A DNA stretch of 64,000 nucleotides, from NCBI RefSeq assembly GCF_029227915.1, contig NC_079885.1:12163001-12227000 (forward strand). The letters run 5' to 3'. Positions 12,977-63,900 of the stretch are shown here, piece by piece. Origin of the DNA: Hydractinia symbiolongicarpus (lineage: Eukaryota > Cnidaria > Hydrozoa > Anthoathecata > Hydractiniidae). The number at the start of each line of letters is the position of its first letter. Positions within the stretch are counted from its first letter, which is position 1. Position numbers and translations under genes: made by a program. Below the pieces are notes generated by a model. That model did not search any database. It saw nothing but the letters and a program-made list of their open reading frames with translations, and had not been told where the DNA came from.

Positions 12977-15900
12977 TTAGTATAGTATACTACATAGTAC
13001 ACAAAATTCGTTTAAAAGGTAGTTACATGTTGATCCTCTTGAAGTGTTGTACATATTAAAATTTCTTTCTAAATCAACCTGAGATATTGCAATACCATGC
13101 GATTCCTCCGTAAGTGTGACCGTGTCTTTTACGCACTTTGTTACATCCTCACGTGATAAATGCCTTATTATTGGTTGATTAGTATTAGGATTTTCACCAA
13201 TAAACGGGTTCAATAGAGATGATTGGATATAATTTGTACAATCCTCTTTGTGGTGATAGCGCTCAACGTATAAATCTGCCATTTTTTTTACTAACGGGTT
13301 TTGCTTTTCAAACTTCATAAAAGATATCACAGAGGTGTTTATGCCATCCAATGTGTTTTGCTGAATTAGCAGAAATGGCTTTGTAACAATAACGTTTTGC
13401 TCAATGAACACACCGCCTACGTTGTATAAAAGCAGTAATTTTATCAGCGGTAGATGCTGGCATTGCATAATATTTGGACGTTCAATAAATTTCTTTAAAG
13501 AGTCGATATTTGATTGTTCGATTAAATGTTTTAGATTATAAGTTTTGATTCTAATGTTATATCCAACTTCAGAGAGCACATCAAATTCTTTTTGTTCAAG
13601 TTTATTGGTATGGTATATCATTAACTGTGCGGAAGGATGATGATGCAACAGTGATTCGACCACTCGTAAGGAAAAATTATCCAATCTCGTAGTCTGTCCA
13701 GTGCTAGAGTGGTAGACCATGTGAATATCGAGTTTAAATAATTCTGCTTGAATTATTGTTGTTGGAGGAATGAGGCCGAACCTTTTAGCTGAATCGTAAA
13801 AAATTGGATTTCTTCTCAACACATTCCACTGTGTTGCTCTTAATTTCATTAATAATCCATATCCAGGGTTAGGAGGAGGGTTGTTCCAATTAAATTCCTT
13901 GAAGAATATCCTCGCGAAAATCTTCCGTGTTTGATACATATTTAAGGTGTGAAACAACCCTGTAAGTCCTGTTGTACGAGGTGACGCTTGTTTAGCCGAC
14001 CCTCCTGCCCCCGGCATATTCGGGGTGTTGATAAATATAACTGGAGTTCCCAATGCGACGCACGGAAGAGCTGCGTGAATTCGTTGAGTGATGACAAGTT
14101 TAGCTCTAGAGTACATCTCAATGCGCTCATAGGAAATCGAATACAGCGAGATAACATTAAATCTTTTATCTTTATGGTCATGTGTGAGTTTTTTGTATTC
14201 AATATGGCTTGGAATAAGTCGTTGATATTCAGGTTTGACGTCGACAACGTAAATTTCATCACTTCGATCCTTGTCTTCATAGTAGTTTCTTAAAAATAAC
14301 GTCAAACAACCGGAAAAATAAGATGGAACCCCTTGACTCTGCAACCAGTACAAAGTAGAGAAATCACGTGCCCCGATCGGTTTCCGGTCCTTTAGATAGG
14401 AAATATATTGCGAGAACTTTGGCCACACGACCGACTGTAGATGCATTGATATCAACTGAGGTGATACTGAATTTTTCGGTGGCCAATTAAATTCTGGATT
14501 TCCCCACCATGCATTTAAAAACACAACAGTGTCGGATGTTTTTTGCGACGTAGGTACCGTTAAGTTTTTACGATCAATAAAGGTGTCAATGTATGGTAGA
14601 AACTGCATACCAGCATATCCCTGGATCTCATCACCAATGTTACCACCACCCAGGATGCCACGCGATTGAAAAGAAAGAGTGGCGAAATGATTTTGTTTAT
14701 TTACAAAATAGAGCATCTTTTTAACGTTGTGAACTGTAACATCTGTAATGACAGTTTTTTCACAGCTCTGTCTGTCATGATACTTTTGATACATCGTGTT
14801 GATGTGTTCATCTAGTTGGAAGTTTTTTGGGCATTGTTCTAAATTGTGCTTTAAAGTATACTGATCTACTAAAGCTTCTGATAAATACAATAAAAAGTGA
14901 CTACGTTGCGGAAAGTAACAGATATCTAATAAGCTTAATTGCGGATTTCTTGCAATCCAAGCTGTGGTGTTAAAGAAAAAGAGAGGGGAGTCGCTCAACC
15001 GATACTTTAGATTGACGAAGATGCCACCATACTTGTACAGTAAGCTTAAACGGATGACATGTTGTAGTAAATCTTCAAAACGTTCGCCAGCTAGCAATTT
15101 AATCAATGGTAATTTTTTCATCCATTCATGAAACGCTGTGTCTTTAATTAAATCATACAGATAAAGAAATTCAACTTTGACATTGATTGACCGTATTGTT
15201 TCACATGCCTTCATGCATCTAGTAGTTGCACAATATATAAAAATAGTAGAATTATTCTGCTCACGCGCAATCCATTTTACTTCTTCGACGAATTGCGAAG
15301 GTACATCTTTATTATACACCCAAGAAGTAAAAATATTCTTCGGTTTGTTTTCGTTTAAGGCAATGTTTTTATCTGTGCGAATTCCTACGTAAAAGGTTAA
15401 AAGAATTAAAATCAGGACCCATATTTTTTTGGATAACTGGTTCCTGCTTTTGTGGTGACATTCTTCTTCTGCATAACTGACGTAAACAAATAAAGCTAAA
15501 CCACAAAACAACACGACAATACCAATCTTCATTTTCACGGATAAAAAAATTGAAAAATAAATCAAGTGAATTACGATTGCAAAAATGCACTTCATCAAAG
15601 TCAGAGCAGAGTAATTACTTGATGAAGCATGTCGTATTATAACAACTGAAAGTAAATTGTATAGTATATATGAAACTATAGCAATTAGCATCCATATATT
15701 GATGTTAGTGATATTTGCATTGGTTTTAAAATCAAAAGAAAACACTGGCAAGCTGAAAATAAGACTCCACATTGTCATAACAGCAAATTTTTCGTTGCTT
15801 CGTTTGCTTTCATGGAATTGAAGGAATATATTGCGCAGGGCGAATGCAGTATTGGACACGAAAGCAGCTGCCAGCGCATACATGCTAGTTCTTGAAATAG

Positions 15901-17772
15901 GATTGAAGTAAATGAAGTTTCCTTGAACAATTATGAATATCGTTACCAAATGTGCCCAAGTATAGTATTTTCTCTTTGACACAACAGCAATTATGAAAGT
16001 GAAAACAAACTCAGAAGATTTTATGACCAAAACATTTGTGGACGATGGAAATAAGCTAAAAGCTAAATTTAATGTAAAAAGTCCAATTGTATTTGCCAAA
16101 GATGCAAATATTACATTTTTTCTTGCATGTAATCTTGCATCTATAATATATCTTGAACAAACCAGAGCAACGATTCCTGCAACTCCAGCTTGTAGTACGG
16201 ACAAAAACAACCAATCGGTCACATGGAGTCGTCCATTATCACCATTCTTCCCTTTCTTTGGCAATGCATGAACAGTGGAAATCGTTGTGGCGGTGTAACT
16301 TAGCAACCAAAGTAGGGCTGTAGTAGCAACTCTTGTATGCGATTTGTTAATGCCAAGAGATTCTACAATTCCTTTCCTGTTAAGAAAAAATATTCAACGT
16401 CAGCTAATTTTTTATGGTAGTATTTCTTTCGTAAAAACGAAATAAGCTCATGTTTTTTGGAAACAAATTGTTTCTAACGTCACTAGAGATTTGTCAAAAA
16501 ATGTTAATAATTGTCCCGCCAGCAGACTGCTCTGGGAACAAGATTGAGAACTGACACCCTCAGAAATAGTTACCAAACTGTGACATTTTACAAACTGTAT
16601 TACTGACTTTCACTAAGAAAACATATGGTAATTATAAAAAATGTGCGGGTTAAAACCTTATTTGACTGGAATAAACGGGGCAATAGATTTGTTGCTTCGC
16701 TTATTCTAATAGGTGTCTGGCCTAACAGCAAAATGATAAAGTGAAGTAAACAGCCATCATACGAGTGGAGAGTTGAAAAATCTCTGGTAGTAACCTAAAA
16801 CCACTTAACATACGTCTGTAAGCGCTTGGATAGACCGCAAGTCATTTATTGGATCTCAGTTCAAGATTACTCAAAAATTACCATTACCGTCAGTTCTTCC
16901 TACTTTCACCTGTCTCAACGTAAACACCTTTTGTGATATTTTACATTTTCATGGAGGTTGTGATTGTCAGTCCATTGAAAGAACTTTTTTTCTGGTGGGT
17001 AATAAAGCATAGCTCAAGGTAAAAGGAAGGAGAGGCTGCTTTTCACTATTTTTTTTTATACCACTATGCATCGACAGAACTATTTTTATCATATTTGTTA
17101 AGTTGTTAATATTAATTTTTTTCCATGCAAGAGAACACAAAGACTTTCTTGTATGTTCATCTTGACTGATAAACTAATTAATGACAGCGAAATAACTCAT
17201 TTAAATTAATGGTACAATGAGTTTAACAATGAGATTAGAAAATAAAATATCATACATCGTTTCCAAATATAAACAACACGAAAGAACCATAGTAGATCTT
17301 TTTTACGGTTTTAAACCTCGTTTCTAGAATACTGAGAGATCCAAGGTAATAAAAGTGAATACCAAATGATAGGAGGTCGAAAAAACTCTTTTACAGTGCC
17401 TATCTGCCTTCATGGATCTTTATTACTACTTTTCCTGAGTCACTTTGAAAGATTGTACACAAAGGTGAGTCAGAATGACGACCCTGGGAAGTAATTCGTG
17501 AGTGTCAGAATGACGACGTTGAAGTTGAATATAGTTACATTTATAGCAATTTCGTTGTGAGTCTTTTCTAAATTACTAACTTAACGTAGTCCAATGTTCA
17601 TGACTATCTTTTCTACACATAGTTATGAAAATTTAACACGACATTGCTTGAAGTATACACTATCCCCCCCTGAAAAACTACTTTGTGCTAAGATTATTGT
17701 TTAAAAAGAAATATGTATTTATTAGATTAACAAAAAGAGTAAACCAACTTACATTACGTCGTATTTCTTCAT
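12977..17772 (-). CDS. Fusion protein: TPT/SLC35-like transporter, two GT-like modules, polysaccharide pyruvyl transferase
   Basis: The model has two exons, 17753-17772 and 12977-16376, and gives 1139 residues. Donor (AT|gtaagt) and acceptor (aacag|G) agree in phase, and the first exon starts at an ATG that encodes MKKYDV. The long exon has no ATG near its 5' end, which is why the upstream exon is needed. Residues about 25-310 form some ten hydrophobic segments of drug/metabolite-transporter type, closest in feel to triose-phosphate/nucleotide-sugar (SLC35) transporters; one more membrane segment lies near 330. Residues 375-530 resemble a GT32-type sugar transferase (LLYKYGGIFV near 451). Residues 575-850 are a polysaccharide pyruvyl transferase, with GGGNIGDEIQGYAG near 580 and the RIH triad R772-H774. 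A second GT-like module follows at 890-1110. Neither GT module keeps a DxD motif. It probably acts in the Golgi. Joining these four parts is highly unusual, and the specific substrate is not known. Confidence 0.85.
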
Positions 17773-20173: not shown

Positions 20174-21032
20174 TAAATCAATAATCTGTTAAAAATATCA
20201 AGCTGAATAACAGGATGATTGGATGATTGCAGGATGAATGTCGGAAATGTGCTGGATGAAGCTTTTTGAGCCGGTAAAACGATCTATCATCCAACACGTT
20301 TTACGTCACATATATGTTTATTCATTCTCTCTACATTCTCATCCTTTCTTCAAAATATCAAGATGGCAAGGAACATGCTCTTGCCTGACCGCATCGTGGA
20401 AAGAACAGAAAATGGATAAAAAGGAGCAGAAACTGTTTTTTGTTGTCAATACTGTTGTCATAGAATCTTCTTCTTCTTCCTTTTCTTCTTCTTTCAAATC
20501 AAATTCATTCATCGTTGAAATGCGTTTTCATCCAGTTAAGTCTTATTTTCTTTCTCCAGCTAACATATTTTCAACTCTGATCAAAAATAGTAAGTCTTAT
20601 TTTACTATTTGCTTGCATAGAACACTCGTCTAAGTAAACGCCACTCTTAAATAACCACTGCAGTGAAACATTTTGTTGTTTCAAAAAACGCAGTGGCGGT
20701 AACCCCGTACACGATAAACGGGATAAATCGGGATTCACATAAGGCCTATATAGAAAAAAATTTCTTCCCAATTGAAGCGTTTTTTAAAAATTACTTTACG
20801 CCCAACATGACAGAAACATAAAGTTGTTAAGAATTTTTAGCTAAAAACTCGACGTGGAGCTAAATCAGAAAAACACTGCAAGCGAAGCATGAGCGTTATC
20901 TCCATGTTAATAAAATATATAGATGAAAATGATTTAAAAAAATATAAATGTTTTTTTGTCTCCCTCAAAAGTAATTGTCAAAAAAAAGTAAATATAATCT
21001 AGTTGTGACACGTGATCATTAGTAAAGTTACC
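20174..21032. other. Gene-free upstream region of the C19orf12-like gene
   Basis: This region is AT-rich. A reading frame over 20238-20633 has no recognisable domain and a low-complexity TCTTCT tract, so I do not call it. The stretch just before 21033 should contain the promoter of the plus-strand gene, but no element is distinctive. Confidence 0.4.
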
Positions 21033-21629
21033 ATGACTACCGGGTTTAGTTCTACAACAATGCACCATGTTATATCACGTGTTACGTCAGGTGTTCGTGA
21101 AGATATGGACGAGCAGATCAAAATAAAACACAATATACATAGATGGACAGCGATCGAAACAGATTTTATACTCTTATACAAAATGCCTGTCACACCGGAA
21201 GATTTCGTTGTGTATTTATCCTTACTATCTGAAGAAATGAATTTACGTGTTGTTGTACCGCAAAACATAAAGGGCGGGTTAATTACAGGAACATCGGCTA
21301 CCATTGGTGGTTTATGTGGTGGACCTGTGGGACTTTTATTTGGTGGCGCTTTTGGTGGAACCGTGGCGGCTGTTAGCTGCAAAGATAAATGCGAAGAGGT
21401 AAAGGATTTAATGGTAAAGTTAGATCGACAGAAACGTTTGCAAATATATAACGCATTTGAAAGTTTACTTGAAGAAGAATTCCGTGCCAGAAACTTTACA
21501 GAGTTTAATGCAAGAATTGAAAGAAACTTGGATTTGAAACATGATATTCTCAAAGAGTTGAAATCGTTTATACTCAAAACCTGGAGGCTTCAGTTATACG
21601 ATCCGCGAGTAAAAAGCGATAATCGTTAG
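21033..21629 (+). CDS. C19orf12-like membrane protein
   Basis: A single uninterrupted frame encodes 198 residues from ATG 21033 (A at position -3). Residues about 51-70 (MPVTPEDFVVYLSLLSEE) and the glycine-rich hydrophobic segment at 80-113, with GGLCGGPVGLLFGG, follow the pattern of the C19orf12 family, whose human member acts at mitochondria, endoplasmic reticulum and lipid droplets and is mutated in a form of brain iron accumulation. The C-terminal 80 residues are charged and helical, as in that family. Compared with the human protein there are about 50 extra N-terminal residues; a second ATG at 21183 would give a protein of more usual length. The gene has no intron although its neighbours are intron-rich, so a retrocopy origin is possible. 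Function here is inferred only from the family. Confidence 0.75.
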   Translation: MTTGFSSTTMHHVISRVTSGVREDMDEQIKIKHNIHRWTAIETDFILLYKMPVTPEDFVVYLSLLSEEMNLRVVVPQNIKGGLITGTSATIGGLCGGPVGLLFGGAFGGTVAAVSCKDKCEEVKDLMVKLDRQKRLQIYNAFESLLEEEFRARNFTEFNARIERNLDLKHDILKELKSFILKTWRLQLYDPRVKSDNR

Positions 21630-23423: not shown

Positions 23424-26400
23424 TCACCTTCTCTTCGCTTTTCTGTCGAAATAATGATCACACTGTAGTAAAGGACAATCAATACCTTCATCAAAGACTT
23501 CATAAAACAGTTCCACATGCTCTGGAAGATCCTCGCTTCCACCAGCAAATCCACATTCTTTTAAAGTTTGCCATTTTTTTAGTTCTACCTTTACGTTATC
23601 TGTCACATGGTATATGGTGACATTTACAACAGTATAATCATATAGAGCTTTCACCATTTCTACCACTCCCTCTATCGTGATGTGAGAATGAATGATGGTT
23701 TGAAGATGACACGGTATATTCTTTAGTTTTGCCATCAAGGCGTATTGTACTTCCAAGTTGATAAATCTGAAACGAGAACAGAACTAATAATAAATTTGAA
23801 CGGGCCACTTTGACCACACTAAACTTTTGTTGTTGTTTTTTTTACTCCAAAACGACTTTAGCCAGCTAAAAATCTCTCACTATCTCCAGACCATGACTTG
23901 ACATTTTATATCAGTCAATGATTGTTTCAAATTCTCGTGTTGCTTGGCAAACGGAAAACATATTTATGTCATGACAAAACTACACTTATTTTGATTTTCA
24001 CTGACCGAAAGTTTTAAAATTAATTTCCGCCCATCAGACTTTCTCACATACTCCTCGACTTCATGCAAATAACAAAAAACAACTGGAAGTCAGACAGACC
24101 TTATGTCATCTGGTTGTTTGCTTTCCCAACGACATATATTACAAGAAGGACATTTCTCGAACTTCTCACGACGTATCTTCAAGACAGGCAACCCATCATC
24201 TTTCCATATACGGACTGGTCTTTGATACCGAATACCTTCTGCAAACTCTGTGTAATCAATATGCTGATCGCGATTCTTATCTACAGTTTTGGCTAACACT
24301 AGAAGTTCGAGTGCACTGAACGGTGCTGCTAGGTCTCTCATACCTGCAAAGAATTCTTCGTATGACAATAAACCATCACCATTTTGATCGAACTTGTGAA
24401 AGATATCAATAACTCGGCCGAAATTACTCAACATCCATTTGCCAATTCGCTGGATGAATGTTTTGTGCAATTCATCTTGCTGGATGTACAAATCTGCTTC
24501 TTGTTCCAATTTACTCTATATGTAAGAAATAAAAAATAAAAAATACCCATATTGGGATGAGGATAATTTGCCTGACGATGATGCAGTAGAGGGACCAGCT
24601 ATGTAGATTAATTAATCAATTAATTAATTATCAATTAATTAATTAATTAATTAATTATCAATTAATTAATTAATTAATTATCAATTAATTAACTAATTAT
24701 TAATTAATTAATTAAGTAATTGGCAAGGCTGCAGCAGTGTCGGGTGTTGTTGTAGAGATGGTAAGTGTCTGAATATATTGGAGTTGAGCTTATTACAAGT
24801 CTTTCTAATCAGAAGGATGGCGTTATCCCAAGTGACTGACAGTCAAGTGAAATAGTTAGTTGTTTTAAGGGCATAGGTGATGCCTTAGTGGAAGTTATTA
24901 AAAAAATGATTGATAAGTTACTCAAACACCTTGGTCAGTTGAAAACAGAATTCCATGGGAGTTATTGCATGCTGATGATTTAGTTCTAATAGCAAAATCG
25001 ATGGAAGAATTAGTTGAAAAGTGAAACAATTGGAAGAAAGAACTATAATAGAAAGGTTTGAAAGTGAATGCAACTAAGTCCAAAGTCATGATCAGCAGCA
25101 ATGAAGCTAATTATGTAGTTGGAAAGTGGCCTCGTGGGATTTGGAGAAAAGGTGTTGGTAGTACTACTTCAATCTTTTGACAGACTTGTAAGCATTGGGT
25201 ACATAAGAAGTGGAGTGGTAATGGAGGAAGGTTAAGAGCTGACATTTAGTTTATATGTAAACATTGCAGAGGTGAGATTATAGACAATGAGTATTTTCAG
25301 CTTTAATGATGTACAACAGTGACTTGTTAGAGATAGTTGAGGATTTCTTTTACTTAGGTTATATGTTGGGTAGTGAAGTGTGTGTTGAAAGATGTGTTAC
25401 CTGCAGGATAGGTTCTGCTTGGAACGAAGTCTAGAGAGTGTCTTTTTTTCAAATAGATGGATGTGTAACACCATTGTAAGAGACAGAAAACGTTTGGATG
25501 AGCTAAGAAGCAGGTTAGGTATTCGTAGCATTAGAGATGTTATTCAAATAAGAAGATTGTGTTGTTTGAAAGAAGATAATTGGGTAAGAAAATGTAGACA
25601 CTTCATAGTTCCTGGGACAAAGCCAAGAGCTTGACTGAGAAAGGCTTGGCTGGAGGTAATAAAAAGTGATGCAGAGGAATTTGATTTTAGAACTAGATCA
25701 AATTTGAAGAAGGTTATTATTATATCCCGTCATGCTAGTATGGAAAACGAACGTTAAGCTAAGAATCATGATAATTATGATGAACCCAAAAATTTATTAA
25801 ATAAAATCATGCAATTATTTCCTGAATGTTAACAATAGCCTAAATCTTATGGAAAGTTTGGATCTTATGAGAATCTAATTTGTTGTTGACATATACCTAA
25901 ATATTTATACATATTTCTTTAAGGAACAATTTTCTAATAAACCAATGCCCAGCATTTAAATTTTTTTTTAAGAATTACTAAAAAACTTCAAGGCTAAAAT
26001 TGTAATTACGAGAAAGGCTGCTGTTGTAACTGTAATATGATACTATAGAGGTTTCCCAATATCATCGAATAAAGATTTTGTTTCTTACCTTAGCACTGAT
26101 AGCCTTTCTTTTCTTCTTTTTTCTAAACAAATTAAATGTAATGTATTTAATAGACAGAGAGTTAACTATTTTTATTGCAGTGTCCAACCATTATTTAGTG
26201 TCATGTGTTACCATTCAAACAGAACGGTTTAAATTATGTCAAACTTTTGAGCAGTAAAATCTAGCTACTTAGTGCTATATTTTCCTGCTTCGCATTTATA
26301 CGGCAATACAAGCGACAACCATGGGAATGACGTTGACTAACAAAAATCAAACTTGAAACGGAGGCTAAAAATACAGCTAGCGTACATTTAAAACGAATAA

Positions 26401-54908: not shown

Positions 54909-57900
54909 TTATCCCCCTGTAGACGCCAGGCGGTAATGGCCTCTTGCAAGCGTCGTAATTTGATCTGGTTGTACAACCCGCTTATCGTCTGCCCTGTTGA
55001 GTGCCAACTTGTTCGCCTCCTGGGTATGTACGTTATGGTCCTTATTTTGCTTCAGGATCTGGCTTTTGTGGATGTCAACACCCTCTTCCAGACATCGTTG
55101 ATAGTCATCGAAGGTTATCGACTTCTTGGTGACACACCTCCTCACGCCCTTTGCTTTCCTGTCACCGCCATCTTTGGTAAGGCTCTTGTACGCATATAGC
55201 TTGTTCCTGAGGGTGATGAACTCTGTCATGATTTTACCACCCAGCTCATCTTTCATCAGACCCACAACCTTCTTGTTTTTCCCTATAGGGAGAGGTCTCC
55301 CATCATCTGCATTATAGCCACTTGTATCAAAACGTGCCTCAAAATCCTGCGCGATATCCTCATAAAAGTCGTAGGTTCATATATGGTACACAAAGCTGTC
55401 CGTACCCATATAGCATATCCGCAGCTTGCTACCGTATTTGGGCTGCATATAATTGCAATGGAATTCATACATCACCATTTTTGACATGTCAAGGATGGCC
55501 TGGCCTATATATACGAGCTTGTTCATCTTCACCTCAGTCTTGCACATCTCTACACCTACCAAATTTTTGCTAAACCTGCTACCACCCTTAAAATTTGGTT
55601 TCATTACAAGCTTTATATATTTATCCTCATTGGTGACTAGCTGGATGTTGCGGTGGTTCCGGATATTTTCCATCGTCTTGCCAAATACACTTAAATTCAT
55701 GAGTTTATAAAAATCTTTTTCGAACTCGTTTTTGGCAACCGTTTTCAACCTTGTGTTGAGATCGATGTACCCTTTCAACCTTGCCTTCTGGTTACACCGG
55801 ATCACTCTGTGCACTTTTTTGATCTCAAGCCCATGTTTTATAGCCTCATGAAGGGCTCTGATATGCACCACATATCTACGCTTATCACGTAGTTTCGGGA
55901 GCAGCTTCTCAACCTTATGGACCATCTTGCGTTCGGGTAGGAAAACGGTAGCTCATTATGTTTATCGTGCAGCTCCCTTGGGTAGTCTATATCTACCTCT
56001 AATATGTACCCCTGCTTATTCCCTTCAACGAGCTTCCCGATCAGCCTTTGGCCTCGACGTTTGCACCCATTTGAACCCGTCCGTGGGCAAGTCTTGATGC
56101 ATCGCCCAGCCATACAGGTTGTTCGCATCCAGATATTGTAGGTAGGAGGACTCTTCATTGGGGTTATACTGACCTCCCATATACTTGTTATTGGCTTTGG
56201 CATACCGGTGTACAGCCTGGGTTATGCCTTCCTTTTATACCCTTCTCGAACATCAGGAGCATATCAGGATCGGTGAGAAGCTATAGCTTTTTACCTGTAA
56301 ATTTCAGGGCTGCCTTCCATGCCAAGCCGGGTGCAGAGTAGAAATGGGCAGGATCAAGGCTGTAGTTGTCCAGTCAGACACCCCGAAATGTCTCGAAGAC
56401 GTCGGCTAATAGCAGGACGTCTATTGTTAAGTAGATATCATGGTAGTCCCCCATAGTGATGCTATCGCCCTCTGGGGTAATGACATTCCATACATTTTTA
56501 GCATAGGTATAATCCCTGTCGCTGATACCTTTCATATTGAGCTGGCTGTAAAAGGCCTCCTTTGGTGGTAGTTCCAACTCCTCAAAAGCTGCCATCCATC
56601 CATGTACTCATAAGGGTACACGCCTTTTCTCAGCATCAGCCTGAAGACATCATCTTTTTCGATGAATTTGGCCATGGATGGTACATTTGGTTTTACCTAG
56701 TCTCTATTAAGCTGATTTTTACACCAAAACTTTGCCATGTATTCGGCGTCTATGCTCATGAATTCCAGGCATGTATCTGCACACTGTTGACATTTCATAC
56801 CTGCGGCGTTTGTTCCAATGAAGTTACTTGCCAATTTGTCAACGCTTGATGCCATAAATCGACAACTATCGATAAACCGTATTTCTATGCTCTTGTACTT
56901 CTCACCATCACCATTTCCCATACCTCCAAGGGGTACCTTGATTTTCACGTTAAAAGAGATGTATTTCTCGGTATTTTCAGCAATACAGCCAATGTCCTGG
57001 GTGTCGTACTTCTCACCTAATTCCCGTATGAAGAGATGGGCATCATACCCCGATAAGTTATGGAATATCACTGGTATGTGGCCAGGTATCTTGTATTTGA
57101 GGTTGCATATTGCGTGCGGTGCGCCTCTATACAGACCTGTATAGTGGCAGTGGTCCCTGACTTTACGGTTATTGTCATAGTTATCAAAGGTTTTCAGGCA
57201 GATATGGCAGTGCGTGGCCTCGTCATGTTCCCTTTTTAGGACCTCCGTTAGTTTGGTCACGGGTTGCTGAGGGTATGTATTATAAAGTCTTTTCACTTCA
57301 TCCTCGAGATGGTTCACGAACTTCGTCACACAGTCCTCACCCCTATAGACTTTTAGTGGATCCGGTACATCTCCATAAGCAAAGGTACTATAGGTGCACC
57401 AGCCGGATGGTACATGCTTGCTTAGCCTTTTCGTCTTGGTATCCCTTGCATCTTTTACCTGGACTAGCAGACTCTCGAAGTCTGCATATATGGCAAAGGA
57501 TACCTTGAATTGCTGTTGGCCATCCCTGTAGCATAGCCATTTTTCAGCATCATTTGGCATTGTGATCTTGACTGCCTCATGATCGATGCAGTATCTATAG
57601 TGCTTGTCCCTCGATTCAGCCGTGGGAAAACCCTGTAGACATGAAAGGTAGAAGTGCATTGGGTTCCTATTCTTTGAAGTCTCCTCGCCCAGGAGCCTCC
57701 ATAGACTTTTGACTGCCGTATAGTGAGTCTTTTTATCATCGATGATAAGCAATAGGGTCACCACCTTGGTACGTCCGTTGTGCACCGATCGACGTAGGAT
57801 GTTGATCCTCTTCAGAACAAAAACAGAACATTCACCGCAATGTCGGGGTTATTCGCCTCGAATTTGTATATGGATATAATACTTGTTGGGAACTCTATAC

Positions 57901-58405
57901 CATCCCAATTTTAAAGGTCTACATGATGCTTCAGCTTGCTTATTCTTTGTGGATCTTTTTCAATCTCATCATGATGCAGGGATGCTATAATGGCCCACTA
58001 GAAACACTCCCCATTCTCATTTTTTTGGTTAATAATTGCCTTTTTAGAAGCTACCTACTTTGGTAGTTCAACATACGATGAACCTCTCGTTAACCGTAGA
58101 GTATGTAAGTCTACATCAAGATATAGGATTTTAGATATTGTAAAGCCACTCCGGGGCAGTGCTGGATTTTCCACACCTGTTTTGATTTGGGCAAACATCC
58201 TATCCAGCACATTGTCCACGTCGCTACCCTGAAATTCCGAGGCCATATTGCTATGAAAAACCTTCTTCACCTCAATGTACTCATCATTAGCCCCCTCTAT
58301 ATTTGAGGGCTTCTTCCACATAATCCACAGGGATAACTGTACCTTTGCCGACCCCATATCTTCTACCTGGTCCCCAACCAAGGTTTTTACGTTTGATCGC
58401 AACAT
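54909..58405 (-). pseudogene. Broken protein-primed type B DNA polymerase (Polinton)
   Basis: Fragments in order from 58405 down: an N-terminal segment ending in GSSYVELPK near 58055; a long fragment at 56697-57785 with the exonuclease motifs YADFES and HNLSGYDAHLFIREL, between which sits an HNH-like zinc region (CHICLKTF and DHCHYTG); GDYHDIYLTIDVLLLADVFE near 56400-56460; then GKTMENIRNHR and GQAILDMSK near 55480-55680; and a C-terminal part with GHYRLAS near 54920. The polymerase motif expected to be DTDS reads GTDS (codon GGT at 55404-55406), so the catalytic Asp is lost. Several frameshifts separate the fragments. The enzyme once copied a linear element from a protein primer. Confidence 0.8.
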
Positions 58406-58534
58406 CCCTATATACCCATCAACATCGGCCCCTCCTATACCATTAATTCGGAAACTTCGGAAGGTCCTGTGGAGAGCATGTTTATGTTTCTTAGGTGTAA
58501 AATCTTGCCCTGGCTGTTCATATAGATAGTCTTC

Positions 58535-58970
58535 CTAAGCATCTTTTTCTACCTCATCACGGAGCGTATGCCTTGTGTTGGCTGACCTGTTATAGAAACC
58601 CATCACCCTGCGTTTGAATACTGCATAGGTACTTTTGACTCCTTCTTTTATAGGCTTTGGAACAGCGTCCACAAGCCAGTTGTACCATTCCCGCATCTTG
58701 GTCTCAACAATCGATCGATTTTTCGACAGCTCCTGTTTCTCGAATACATCCATCTCAGATGGGGGCAATACCCAGTTGTACCATTCCCTGATTTTACCCC
58801 CGATGGTTGGACGGGTCTTGGCCATCTCCTGTCTCTCTAAGACGTCCATATCCTCTGATGTTATAGGCCTGACCGGTTTCTGTGATACATTCTCCAATAA
58901 GGCAACCAATTCAGCTTTACGTAGTCTATAATACCCTGTAAATCCACGGGTTTTTCCATATCACGTAATT
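58535..58970 (-). pseudogene. N-terminal region preceding the Polinton polymerase
   Basis: A frame without a clear start codon (open from about 58970) encodes two imperfect internal repeats of about 33 residues, each ending in REWYNW, followed by a basic helical stretch. This type of repeated segment occurs upstream of or fused to the polymerase of Polinton-like elements. Stops separate it from the polymerase fragment at 58405. Confidence 0.4.
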
Positions 58971-59226: not shown

Positions 59227-60966
59227 TATCATTAGGGAAATTCCCTGTGCTAGAATTTTGCACTCATTTGATGCATTTTATGACGTCATTACTTAGTTGG
59301 GACTTTACCCTGCTAGGCATGGCTAGGTATGGCATGGTAAGGACTTTCCCCACTAAGTTTTGGATGATCGGGGATTTCTTGTGATGTCTTGTGGGCGTGC
59401 GCGTGCGCGTGCGCCTGCGCCAGAAGTAACATTTCTCTATCTCTAGGGTGCCTTGACATCAAAAATTGTCTTCAGTACCTTGCCTCTTTGGATTTAATTG
59501 CTTTTCTCTGATTCTTGGATAGCAGGAAGAAATGTCTTTTTGTACATCATTACAACATTCAGAATGCGATTCATTGAATGGTTGTGACTACCAATGACAT
59601 AACTGCCAAGATGACAATCTAAAACCTGTTGTAGTTTGAACATAGCTTTACCTGCACAAAACTGGGGAACATGTTGAAGTTTCCATTTGTACCTGAAAAC
59701 CAGATTTATACCGTCTTTTTATATCAAACAGGGACAATCCCTAAAAACGAGGGTAATGCTGTTTTTTTTCGTAAAGTTTTTCAAAAATATTTTTCACAAT
59801 AAGCTATGTTCGAAATCGTATCTTTATTAAGACTTCGTGAAGTTGTAAGCAAACGGAGTCTTTTAACAACTTAGTTTCTTTTCTACAGGAGACGAAATTG
59901 GAATTTATCAGAATTTTCGCAATCATTTTCTGTAATGAAGTCATCGAATGTTCCATTCCAGTGTCCGTGTCAACAAAGTATTTATTCAATACAACTCAAT
60001 AGTAATGGTAGATATACCTAATACCACAGAAGCAAGACAATAGAAACACAAGAAAAATAAGAAGATTTATTCTCAGAAAACACAACAACGATTGTCAAGG
60101 AAATCAAAGCAGCAAAATTTGGAAACGATTACTAACAGGAAAAGGAAGTTTAAAGAATCAATGTTGTATTTTTATGAAAATAATAATCTAATAGTAAATT
60201 AGAACAATGTGTTTTGGCAGTTACATGAAAAATTAATTAAATTAAATCGAGGCAATTAAATAAATGTGGTGTATGGCGGCACTTACGAGGTATGACATCA
60301 CGTTGAATCCTCTCGTAAAATTTACAAATAGTATGATGCTTTAAAATGCTGGTATTAAGCCTGGAGGAGCTGACCAGTAGTTAGTGGGTAAATACATTCT
60401 TTACCTACTTCGTTTCCAGCGCCTGTTCATATCGCTTTCCTGATGTCAAAATGATACTAGTGTCTGGGGACGAGGTTGATTCTTTACTTTATGTCACAAA
60501 TGGGAAACAACTAACATTTTTAAATTTACAAAAAAATAGAGAATTTGTGCCCGTATCACATTTTGTTGTGGAAATTAATGCATCAATGGCAACTTTGAAC
60601 CTAGTTTTTACAGTGTTTTTAGATATATTGATATTATAATACTTTAGATCTTGGGTTTGAGGTTGGCAATCGCAGGAAAAAATCGTTCGTAAAACCCCGG
60701 CGCGAGCGGGGTCATTTTGCGTCCGAAAACGGGTTTGTCTCGCTTTTGTAACTATCGAGTTCATTGGGATGTGATCGATGCGCGAAAAATTCTGCGCATG
60801 ATTTGTGATTGAGAGCATTGTTTTTTGAAAAAGTAAAGCCGATGGATAGAATGTTGTGAATCTGCAGCTAGAAAATATATATGCTATTTACATTTCTTAA
60901 ATTATTTTGTTATATACCTTCATGGGTTGTGGTATGTGTACGTAGATCATTTTTCTAAAATACAAG
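59227..60966. other. Upstream region of the SNRK gene
   Basis: No gene is seen in this stretch. It includes the GC-rich alternating tract at 59394-59420, one copy of the CTGGGGACGAGGTTG motif at 60463, and a locally GC-rich part at about 60690-60790 that may belong to the SNRK promoter or 5' untranslated region. Confidence 0.45.
59394..59420. repeat. Alternating purine-pyrimidine GC tract
   Basis: About 27 bp of GCGTGC-type units (GGGCGTGCGCGTGCGCGTGC and on). Such alternating tracts can adopt Z-DNA. It stands out in otherwise AT-rich sequence. Confidence 0.75.
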
Positions 60967-63900
60967 ATGGAGCCACAGTCACATCGGCTGAGAGTAAGTG
61001 GTAAACATGATAAAAGTATTGCTGGTTTATACGACATGGAAACCTCCTCACTTGGTTCGGGTCATTTTGCTGTTGTCAAACTTGCTCGTCATGTTTTTAC
61101 TGGAGAAAAAGTTGCTGTTAAAGTTATAGATAAAAGTAAACTAGATGAAGTTGCTAAAGCTCATCTAAAACAAGAAGTGGATTGTATGAAATTAGTTCAA
61201 CATCCAAATGTTGTTAGGTTGTACGAAGTTATTGATACACAATCAAAATTATACCTTATTCTTGAATTTGGGGATGGGGGTGATATGTACGATCATATAA
61301 TGAATCAAAATGGAATTACTGAGGAAAAGGCTCGACACTATTTTAAGCAAATTGTGTCGGCAATAGATTATTGTCATAAACTTCATGTTGTTCATAGAGA
61401 CTTAAAACCGGAAAATGTTATATTTTTCAAATCACAAGATTTAGCTAAATTGACTGACTTTGGATTTTCTAATAATTTTCTACCTGGAGAAAAGTTATAT
61501 ACTTCATGTGGCTCTTTAGCCTATTCTGCACCTGAAATACTCTTAGGCGATTCTTATGATGCACCAGCTGTAGGCAAGTATTTTAATTTAAAAGTACTGT
61601 ACACTTGATTTGCTTCAAGAAACATTCTGTGGAAAAATCTGCCTATGCAGGACAGTTACAGCTTTAAGTATATGTGATTGTATTTCATTAGCTATCTTTA
61701 TTATCCTTATGCAATCAAACAAAGCTTGAACATTGTAAAAACCACATTATTTGGGCTATTCTTGAGGAAAATAAGACACCCCTTGTGTGTCAGTTCAAAG
61801 ATAGCTGACTCAATGAAATTTTGACTTTTTATGGAATATCTCTCTGGGGGCCGTCAACTAATGATTTTTGTCTTTTTTATCAGCATATGGCTGATTAATA
61901 CTTTACCCCTCCCCCTCTGTAATGTGTCAACAAAATATTAAAAAGTACTAGTCGTTTAATCCTGCGGAAAAATCCAGTTAGGCTGAGAAAAAATAAAAAA
62001 GATGCATCATTTAAATTTAGTATTTATTGTATAGAACCTTAAAGCTTATTAAAATAATGTATAACATAATGTGTTTTTAAAAAAATGGTTAAGGAGACAT
62101 AAGGGTTTAAAAATTTTGTTGATGTGAGCAAAGAACCAATTGACACAAAAATTTTTTTAAAAAAAACTTGTATACCAGTTTGTATTTCTATATTTGAAGA
62201 GGTCTCTTAAAGCTGATCAAGAAATTATATCAGATCGTGGACTTTTGACTAATGGTTACAGAGAATTAAATTCTCATTTTTAGTGCTGTTTTTACTAATT
62301 CCAGTGTTCTGCTTATCCCTTGCATACTTAATGTTTGTCTTGTCACTATGCGCTATTGTGTCTGCCTATGTTTGTGCTGTCTGTAATGTGTTTTTGTATG
62401 CTGTGCATGGTAGTTTTGTGACTTTTGGGTGGCTCCTGTGTCGTTATAAGTATTTTACCTTGTAGTTGTCTCCTGTTTAGTAGCCAGGGAAAAAAAATCT
62501 GAGCTTAGCTATATAATTAATCTCTGTAACTTTTTTAACCTCCTATTGACAAATACAAATTTTTTTCTTACTTGCTTACTTACTAGATATTGGTTAACTT
62601 TTTTTTAAGGGGATCAGGTTTTGAAAACCCAATTTGACCCTAGGGTGTCCCTAAGTTACCTGCATGGTGAAAAATAACTAATGTCACACCTCTTTCGAGT
62701 TATTAATTTAAGTTAAGCTATTGACATTAAATTAATGTTATTGATGTCACAAAGCTTAATTAGGATTTCGGACATGCTTTTTTGTGACTTTAAAAAAAAA
62801 TGAACACATCCAATTAAGCCTGTCACAGACACAGGAACACATCGATGCACACCAGTCATGTAGCTAAGATACCATAAAAGTTGTTTCTGACAACATCTGC
62901 AAGTCATCATTGAAACTCTAAGAATGGATTATTTATAGCTTTTCTAGTCTAATGGATTAACAAACTCAAGTTAAATTCTGATTGATAAATAGCTGTTAAA
63001 CAGATACTGAGAACGCTGCATTGGACCTTCTGCTAGTCACTACTGATTTAAACCATGCAGAACCCTCTTATAACCCTTTATAATTTTTGTTTTGTTTAGA
63101 TGTCTGGTCTCTTGGTGTGATATTATATATGATGGTTGTTGGTAAAGGCCCATTTAGCCATACTAATGACTCTGAGACGTTAACAATGATAATGGATTGC
63201 AAATACCATTTACCTGATACTTTATCTGAAGATTGTAAAAGGTGTGTAAACATTTGACGACAAGTCTAGATGGTCACTTTTTCATTAATGAAAACTTATG
63301 TGTCCAAGTTTTATAGCCCTTACACATTGCAAGATAATATGTTTATGTTATTTTTACATCGATTGATTGTTGATGGCTTGTTGTTGCCGTATGTAAATGT
63401 TTTAATAATAATAATGCCAGCTCACTTCCAAGGACATGTAGGTTTCTTAAGCATACAAAATTTTCAAAAAAGGCATTTTTTGCTTTAAAAAAATAATTTT
63501 CTCATGCAGAGTATAAAATGTCAAATAATATTTTTAGACCAAGGAGAGTTGATCACCTGTTTTTACTGCGGGCTTTAAAAACACATGCATAAATATAAGT
63601 ATTCACATATAAATTATTCACTTCTGAAATGAAATTTGTACTGTTTCTTTCCTTTGGACAGTTTAAAATGTTAAATGTGTCAAAAAAAATTCAAACAAAC
63701 GAATCAAATAAAAATGTTTGATTCGTTTGTTTGAAAACAAATTTAATAACAAAAATGTTATTAATTTTGTTATGCGGAGCTGCATTTAAAATGAGCTAAA
63801 AAAAGTAGATTAGATTGCATAAAATTCTGACCAATTGTATGATAAAGAGAAAAAAGGTGTTTTTTTACATTTTATAAATTAAAATTTGACCTTTATTGCT

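Follow-up and report, generated by a model that had tools for sequence, protein, structure and literature searches.

A predicted gene joining a TPT-type transporter, a pyruvyltransferase and two glycosyltransferase-like modules, and its diverged duplicate, in Hydractinia symbiolongicarpus

Gene model and modular organisation

The stretch of 64,000 nucleotides analysed here (the window; Hydractinia symbiolongicarpus, NC_079885.1, positions 12,163,001 to 12,227,000) contains between positions 17772 and 12977 a predicted gene for a single protein that comprises, in this order, a ten-helix transporter of the TPT/SLC35 type, a glycosyltransferase-like (GT-like) module A, a polysaccharide pyruvyl transferase domain and a second GT-like module B. 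The gene and all of its features given below lie on the minus strand. The same order of modules was detected in a diverged paralog on another contig of this genome.

The main exon (12977..16376), which contains the remaining coding sequence and the stop codon, lies inside one stop-free run of 1138 codons (16393-12977). A chance origin of this frame is excluded by a simulation in which 60 sequences imitating the 64-kb window with a first-order Markov model had longest stop-free runs of at most 226 codons (mean 144). Upstream of the main exon a stop codon is located few codons ahead of a good predicted acceptor (TTTCTTAACAG/G, before 16376). The predicted 5' exon (17753..17772) starts with the start codon at 17772, encodes MKKYDV and ends with a phase-2 donor (AT/GTAAGT); joined to the main exon across a predicted intron of 1376 bases (16377..17752) it yields a protein of 1139 residues. 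Both splice sites are predictions from the consensus. Three of the nine joins tried resulted in 1139 residues, and GT-AG ends were read from the sequence in one of these only. The single frame of 1139 residues proposed in an earlier note on this DNA was thus reproduced exactly.

Residue numbers refer to this 1139-residue model, positions in alignment A6 and in the structure model based on it being one lower. The Pfam searches were run over the open frame of 1109 amino acids (aa) as well as over separate pieces. Neither an RNA family search nor a tRNA search of the window gave a match.

A diverged second copy in the same genome

A search of the genome (G000, 481 Mb, 76 contigs) with the window protein revealed one other matching place besides the window locus, namely two pieces of one 1199-codon frame on the minus strand of contig C15 (C15:3827618-3831046). 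The encoded paralog shares 36% identity with the window protein and has the same order of modules, again in a single frame. The domain order described in the earlier note is therefore present a second time in a gene which that note did not mention, and its claim that one frame holds all modules is supported by the retention of this frame in a diverged paralog. According to Pfam the paralog contains TPT (6e-28, 98.5 bits), PS_pyruv_trans (9.5e-13, 49.1 bits) and Gly_transf_sug (6.8e-6, in two stretches of the whole protein). A search of the genome with the PF04230 profile detected the window locus and the C15 locus only, while the PF04488 profile gave no match in this genome and equally none in the control genomes. 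The same applies to a search for GFP, which was negative here and in the controls.

Some 2.2 kb upstream of the C15 copy a candidate exon (ATGATGCTTCTTAACAA/GTAAGA) was read by eye, as was an acceptor of the same phase; they suggest that an intron ahead of the first membrane helix may be common to both copies.

At fourfold-degenerate sites the two copies agree in 28 of 105 cases. The agreement at second codon positions amounts to 0.59 in the transporter, 0.66 in module A, 0.72 in the pyruvyltransferase and 0.60 in module B, the pyruvyltransferase being the best conserved module with 48% identity. Since the likeness at silent sites is lost while all four modules kept their likeness at constrained positions, the pattern is as expected for an old duplication of a working gene, and an assembly error and chance can therefore be dismissed as explanations.

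Pyruvyltransferase module

The polysaccharide pyruvyl transferase domain comprises residues 575-866 (13799..14674). The PS_pyruv_trans family was matched with E-values of 8.7e-12 (1109-aa frame) and 4.2e-13 (separate piece), and the curated cut-off of PF04230 (25.3 bits) was passed by the window piece (50.3 bits) as well as by the paralog (49.1 bits). In the entry motif N-I-G-D-E (residues 586-590, 14627..14641) the residues N, G and D are identical in all 46 prokaryotic rows of the alignment and in both copies. R677 of the motif G-A-R-D (14366..14368), located in a column with arginine in 48 of 48 rows, is the probable equivalent of R148 in CsaB and of R217 in Pvg1p from Schizosaccharomyces pombe, as judged by the motif and not by residue alignment. 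Based on the family-profile alignment R772-I773-H774 (14075..14083) corresponds to R337-L338-H339 of Pvg1p; the histidine of this R-x-H motif occurs in 48 of 48 rows and the arginine in 39. The family profile (HMMER) aligned to Pvg1p (PDB 5ax7) across R-x-H with an E-value of 0.065, being the second match behind an unrelated kinase (0.015), and a sequence search of the PDB with the window pyruvyltransferase piece gave one chance match only. The residues in contact with phosphoenolpyruvate (PEP), i.e. the arginine of G-x-R-D and R-x-H, are thus present in the window copy.

The predicted fold of residues ~565-865, derived from an alignment and model (A6) that took in 26 of the 48 prokaryotic loci described below, was best matched by Pvg1p (VIA-align), more than 4 Z units above all other structures except 6x1l. 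The assignment of residues 575-850 to a pyruvyl transferase, which the earlier note had made dependent on such a fold match, is thus borne out by the family profile, the conserved residues and the predicted fold. Its statement that an R-L-H triad is catalytic overstates the papers, which describe these residues of Pvg1p as modelled PEP contacts (PMC4872226, PMC6801904). According to the same sources the variants R217A and R337A of Pvg1p were not expressible, and D106A alone was tested among the proposed catalytic residues (PMC4872226; PMC6801904). A further study does not reproduce the leucine contact and describes the R148 and H308 variants of CsaB as inactive or impaired (PMC10435577).

GT-like modules

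Module A (residues 350-571, 14684..15349) carries GGIFVNLK at the place of GGVWVDA in the bacterial Caps_synth proteins. In the window copy Pfam gave E-values of 0.24 and 0.23 for Gly_transf_sug and 0.017 for Caps_synth, which is at chance level because the unrelated HhH-GPD family scores equally well (0.068 and 0.049). The bit scores of module A fall below the curated cut-offs of PF04488 (12.6 in the window copy and 18.1 in the paralog, cut-off 23) and of Caps_synth (PF05704; 14.9, cut-off 24.5). A first GT-like module, placed by the earlier note at residues 375-530, therefore finds no backing in the Pfam matches of the window copy, but is indicated by the BLASTP alignment of module A with module B (5e-4 in an unfiltered comparison of just these two sequences, a value of limited weight) and by the matches of the paralog, in which Gly_transf_sug covers two stretches of the whole protein and module A alone reaches 0.0045.

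Module B (residues 886-1139, 12980..13741) contains the motif GGVFIEQN. It corresponds to the second GT-like module proposed earlier (890-1110), which is recognised above the Gly_transf_sug cut-off of 23 bits in the whole protein (4.7e-6, 27.7 bits) but falls below it as a separate piece (0.0011-0.0012, 19.9 and 20.1 bits). In the paralog PF04488 scores 27.1 bits in the whole protein and 17.7 bits as a piece. The predicted fold of module B resembles GT-A at low confidence. When the profile of module A was compared with that of module B, and both with Caps_synth, the probabilities were low (18.6, 4.4 and 13.0%), the alignments falling on the GG motif.

Glycosyltransferases of the GT32-like type follow a D-x-D rule (Pfam description and general knowledge). 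In module A of the window copy the acidic residue after GG is absent (N-L-K), while the paralog has one aspartate (D-P-F) that matches the one in the bacterial GG-V-W-V-D-A. An acidic D-x-D after GG was not found in module B of either copy (E-Q-N in the window copy, E-N-D in the paralog). Since neither GT-like module of the window copy has a clear acidic motif, it seems doubtful that they transfer sugars.

Transporter module and predicted topology

The transporter module (residues 24-310, 15467..16327) was identified by Pfam, by hydropathy and by the model at low confidence, which predicts ten main helices ahead of residue 311. In the window copy the TPT family was matched with 1.2e-8 (1109-aa frame) and 6.6e-10 (piece) and EamA with 2.2e-6; the curated TPT cut-off (PF03151, 30 bits) was passed by both the window copy (39.3 bits) and the paralog (98.5 bits). 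The paralog transporter aligns over 250 residues with the phosphate translocator of Galdieria (5y78, 1e-12), whereas the whole window frame reached only 0.061 against this structure and a PDB sequence search with the window transporter piece gave nothing useful.

The substrate pocket of the Arabidopsis TPT is formed by H184, K203, F262, Y338, K359 and R360 (PMC6981301). We mapped these positions onto both copies by alignment and, through the Galdieria chain, by spacing; the intervals of 19, 59 and 76 residues recur in that chain, and one later interval differs by two residues. In the paralog the six positions are occupied by N113, K132, F194, Y255, K278 and R279 (frame numbering), so that five of the six Arabidopsis residues are kept. 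Plant PEP translocators also have asparagine at the first position. In the window copy the pocket consists of L106, K126, F185, Y246, K269 and C270, so that K, F, Y and K are kept, and at the site of the Lys-Arg pair (K269-C270, 15587..15592) the arginine present in the paralog is lost. The complete set H, K, F, Y, K, R is found in neither copy, the paralog fitting it far better than the window copy.

The multi-span transporter of the earlier note is hence confirmed as a member of the TPT family, which includes sugar-phosphate and PEP translocators, but the import of the donor is not supported for the window copy, where the pocket arginine is replaced by cysteine and the histidine by leucine. 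It is credible from the pocket residues that the paralog is a phosphate-ester carrier. PEP would be its likeliest cargo because a pyruvyltransferase is attached, the window copy being the weaker case.

The Lys-Arg pair was initially considered as a mark of PEP carriers and was dropped as such, as two further TPT-family loci in this genome (C2 and C4) carry it as well, a third one (C6) having Lys-Ser; these motifs were read from open frames. A tblastn search with both transporter modules against the other TPT loci of the genome gave no match at 0.01. The TPT-family gene on C6 (C6:24655190-24656050, L055) consists of one 310-codon frame with the Lys-Ser motif and is possibly a retroposed SLC35-type gene.

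In transporters of the TPT/SLC35 class there are ten helices, and both termini are cytosolic. An eleventh membrane helix, preceded by KK, was predicted at residues 319-345 (15362..15442; 320-343 by hydropathy, 318-344 in the model). Because it follows a ten-helix transporter with both ends cytosolic, we infer that all of the protein behind it is luminal, as is the site of action of Pvg1p. This part of the protein bears seven of the ten N-x-S/T sites.

Prokaryotic relatives and origin of the pyruvyltransferase domain

Relatives of the pyruvyltransferase domain were detected at 48 prokaryotic loci in a scan of one genome per species; with a Sphingobium plasmid protein added, the set comprises 49 relatives. 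Alignment A4 and the tree include 45 of the 48 loci, the Sphingobium protein and both Hydractinia copies, the short or cut-off sequences L051, L052 and L053 being excluded. Pfam scans of ten of the 49 prokaryotic proteins revealed no TPT transporter.

Based on these Pfam scans and on a Caps_synth profile derived from A9 and run on the frames of all 49 loci, a Caps_synth domain stands directly before the pyruvyltransferase in five of them, including L053, which is cut by a contig end and whose pyruvyltransferase is below the cut-off. A possible sixth fusion (L046) is truncated at its start and has a weak score, and L040 has a neighbouring frame immediately upstream with a weak match. In the Sphingobium plasmid the fusion (L001:8227-9903) is located beside a dTDP-rhamnose and polysaccharide export cluster. 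Another pairing of both activities was noticed in Saccharibacteria (L026:5956-8133), where a GT2 glycosyltransferase stands behind the pyruvyltransferase, i.e. in reverse order.

In the tree (48 rows) the two Hydractinia copies pair with 100/100 support on a long branch, surrounded by prokaryotic proteins most of which stand alone. Five bacterial fusions in the tree form a branch of their own (100/99), apart from the two copies in the free tree, and a single clade of the fusions and the two copies was not rejected by the approximately unbiased (AU) test (p 0.229). Bacteria thus also combine a glycosyltransferase with a pyruvyltransferase, whether through shared ancestry or through separate events. 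It appears plausible that the domain came from prokaryotes, at an undated time. Among plasmid records the Sphingobium fusion was the one relative, phage records contained none, and in the viral collection three pattern-based scans (with the window protein, the Sphingobium fusion protein and alignment A3) gave no confirmed relative. Within these viral and phage scans a viral source is not supported.

Other features of the window

Four further regions of the window were annotated. Successive frames at 54909-58960 (minus strand) have a higher GC content (0.40-0.45) and weak matches to a viral or organellar type B DNA polymerase and a recombination endonuclease VII; they presumably belong to a Polinton/Maverick-type element. 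A protein kinase exon (60946-61605, plus strand; Pkinase 1.8e-52) resembles what we take to be an SNF1/AMPK-related kinase. An open frame at 21009-21626 (plus strand) matches the C19orf12-like family (6e-16), and an exon at 24093-24515 (minus strand) encodes an EF-hand pair (1e-18) followed by a C-terminal stretch without match. The last three of these regions, together with a spliced gene in a genome of 481 Mb, are in keeping with an animal source.

Proposed function and alternative explanations

Both copies hold the same module order in one frame, the pyruvyltransferase is recognisable by its family, its residues and its predicted fold, and the transporter pocket of the paralog is largely kept. 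Taking these observations together, we are inclined, by a small preponderance, to regard the window gene and its paralog as diverged duplicates of a gene of eukaryotic, and probably animal, type which encodes a glycan pyruvyltransferase anchored in the membrane, including the mechanism outlined below.

Both termini of the ten-helix transporter would be cytosolic, with the eleventh helix taking the enzyme part into the Golgi lumen. The transporter of the paralog would import PEP and may return the released phosphate. Using the imported PEP the pyruvyltransferase would attach pyruvate as a ketal to a terminal sugar, galactose being the likeliest one, and the GT-like modules may hold or extend the acceptor chain. 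The window copy seems to have kept the pyruvyltransferase core, while both GT motifs and the pocket of its transporter, with Cys for Arg and Leu for His, decayed; for this reason it probably depends on the paralog or a further carrier for its PEP and perhaps acts on another acceptor.

Several points weigh against this interpretation. The full-length model is mostly of low confidence (mean pLDDT, the predicted local distance difference test, 56.9) and the scores of the GT-like modules are weak. At 18 columns fully conserved in the 46 prokaryotic rows the window copy departs in two and the paralog in three. The position of K328 in CsaB is a gap in 41 of these rows, with lysine in the paralog and asparagine in the window copy. 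The window transporter is weak against TPT and has lost pocket residues, and neither copy is filed as a member of the phosphate/PEP translocator subfamily TIGR00817, whose cut-off of 317.9 bits is reached neither by the window copy (27.9) nor by the paralog (77.2, 1.5e-21). Furthermore, both copies retain the phenylalanine at the position of Phe262, which is described as crucial for excluding PEP from the plant TPT; the diatom TPT2 type, having kept this residue with Gln and Asn replacing His and Tyr, moves PEP (PMC6981301). As the Lys-Arg pair shared with C2 and C4 is not special to PEP carriers, the cargo of the paralog could be another one.

The transporter might accordingly import another phosphate ester or a nucleotide sugar, PEP arriving through a separate carrier and the fusion serving the GT-like modules or only as an anchor. 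The distribution of the Lys-Arg pair, the retained phenylalanine and the window frame, which stayed open despite its lost pocket residues, would agree with such a role. However, the paralog matches the Galdieria translocator and, although far under the cut-off, TIGR00817, and a PEP carrier would be the simplest partner for an enzyme in need of PEP, so that this alternative seems unlikely while deserving serious attention.

A window copy that is a pseudoenzyme, having lost catalysis and acting as a structural partner, for instance in a heteromer with the C15 protein, appears rather improbable. The missing arginine and histidine of the transporter pocket and the missing acidic residues of both GT-like modules would fit this view, but the pyruvyltransferase is the module best conserved between the copies at the protein level as well as at second codon positions, and the window copy agrees at 16 of the 18 fully conserved columns, including R677 and H774.

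We assign a still lower probability to an enzyme part which kept the fold alone and transfers a group other than pyruvate or uses another donor. The GT-B-like fold of residues ~565-865 is common to other transferases and epimerases, and the identity in the structural alignment with Pvg1p is only 12%; nevertheless Pvg1p was the best VIA-align match by the margin given above, and both the arginine and the R-x-H motif are retained. That several genes, or sequences wrongly joined in the assembly, were misread as one is hardly credible, since every module of the predicted gene lies in one exon and the diverged copy on another contig has the same order, again in a single frame.

Returning to the membrane-anchored glycan pyruvyltransferase, a more far-reaching version may be put forward tentatively, although we hold it for slightly less probable than its contrary. 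One polypeptide would import PEP into the Golgi and pyruvylate the sugar that its own GT-like modules add or present, thus acting as a self-supplied machine for glycan pyruvylation; it would be the type of enzyme still lacking as the source of the pyruvylated galactose known in sponges and molluscs, or its new counterpart in animals, and the window copy would have specialised after the loss of import. The gene pair is a concrete and testable candidate for an enzyme pyruvylating sugars in animals. A transporter fused to the enzyme that uses its substrate would, if true, be an unusual case of import and use of a donor in one chain, and the two copies offer a natural comparison, most of the phosphate pocket being kept in one and lost in the other.

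Comparison with known systems

Pyruvylated galactose has been reported in a sponge (Microciona) and a sea hare (Aplysia) (PMC6801904, PMC6994554). The three functionally characterised ketal-pyruvyltransferases that serve as the basis of a 2019 review are CsaB, WcfO and Pvg1p, none of them from an animal, and the sequence networks of this review were restricted to proteins of 250-600 residues (PMC6801904). Due to this limit proteins of 1100-1200 residues lie outside these networks. In the open-licence literature we found neither a description of an animal pyruvyltransferase nor one of a chain that unites the known enzyme and transporter families as in the Hydractinia gene.

The nearest relatives found by sequence are the prokaryotic PF04230 proteins, e.g. 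those of Shinella and of metagenome-assembled genomes (MAGs) of Methanosarcinales and Caulobacterales, with 24-35% identity to the window domain (alignment A4); they differ in being mostly one-domain proteins as judged by length. The bacterial Caps_synth-PS_pyruv_trans fusions (Sphingobium plasmid, S. naphthae and MAGs of Chloroflexi, Eremiobacterota and Hyphomicrobiales, the last one cut by a contig end and outside the tree) carry a GT-family domain where module A sits, but have neither a transporter nor a second GT module. The plastid phosphate translocators (TPT/PPT; Galdieria 5y78) resemble the transporter module of the paralog but have no enzyme domain.

Another close known system is Pvg1p (PDB 5ax7) with Pet1p/Pet2p in S. 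pombe, which the window gene resembles in the predicted fold and in the R-x-H motif. In this yeast PEP is required in the Golgi lumen and is delivered by transporters. In S. pombe, however, Pvg1p is separate from its transporters, whereas the window gene combines a transporter, a pyruvyltransferase and two GT-like modules in one chain.

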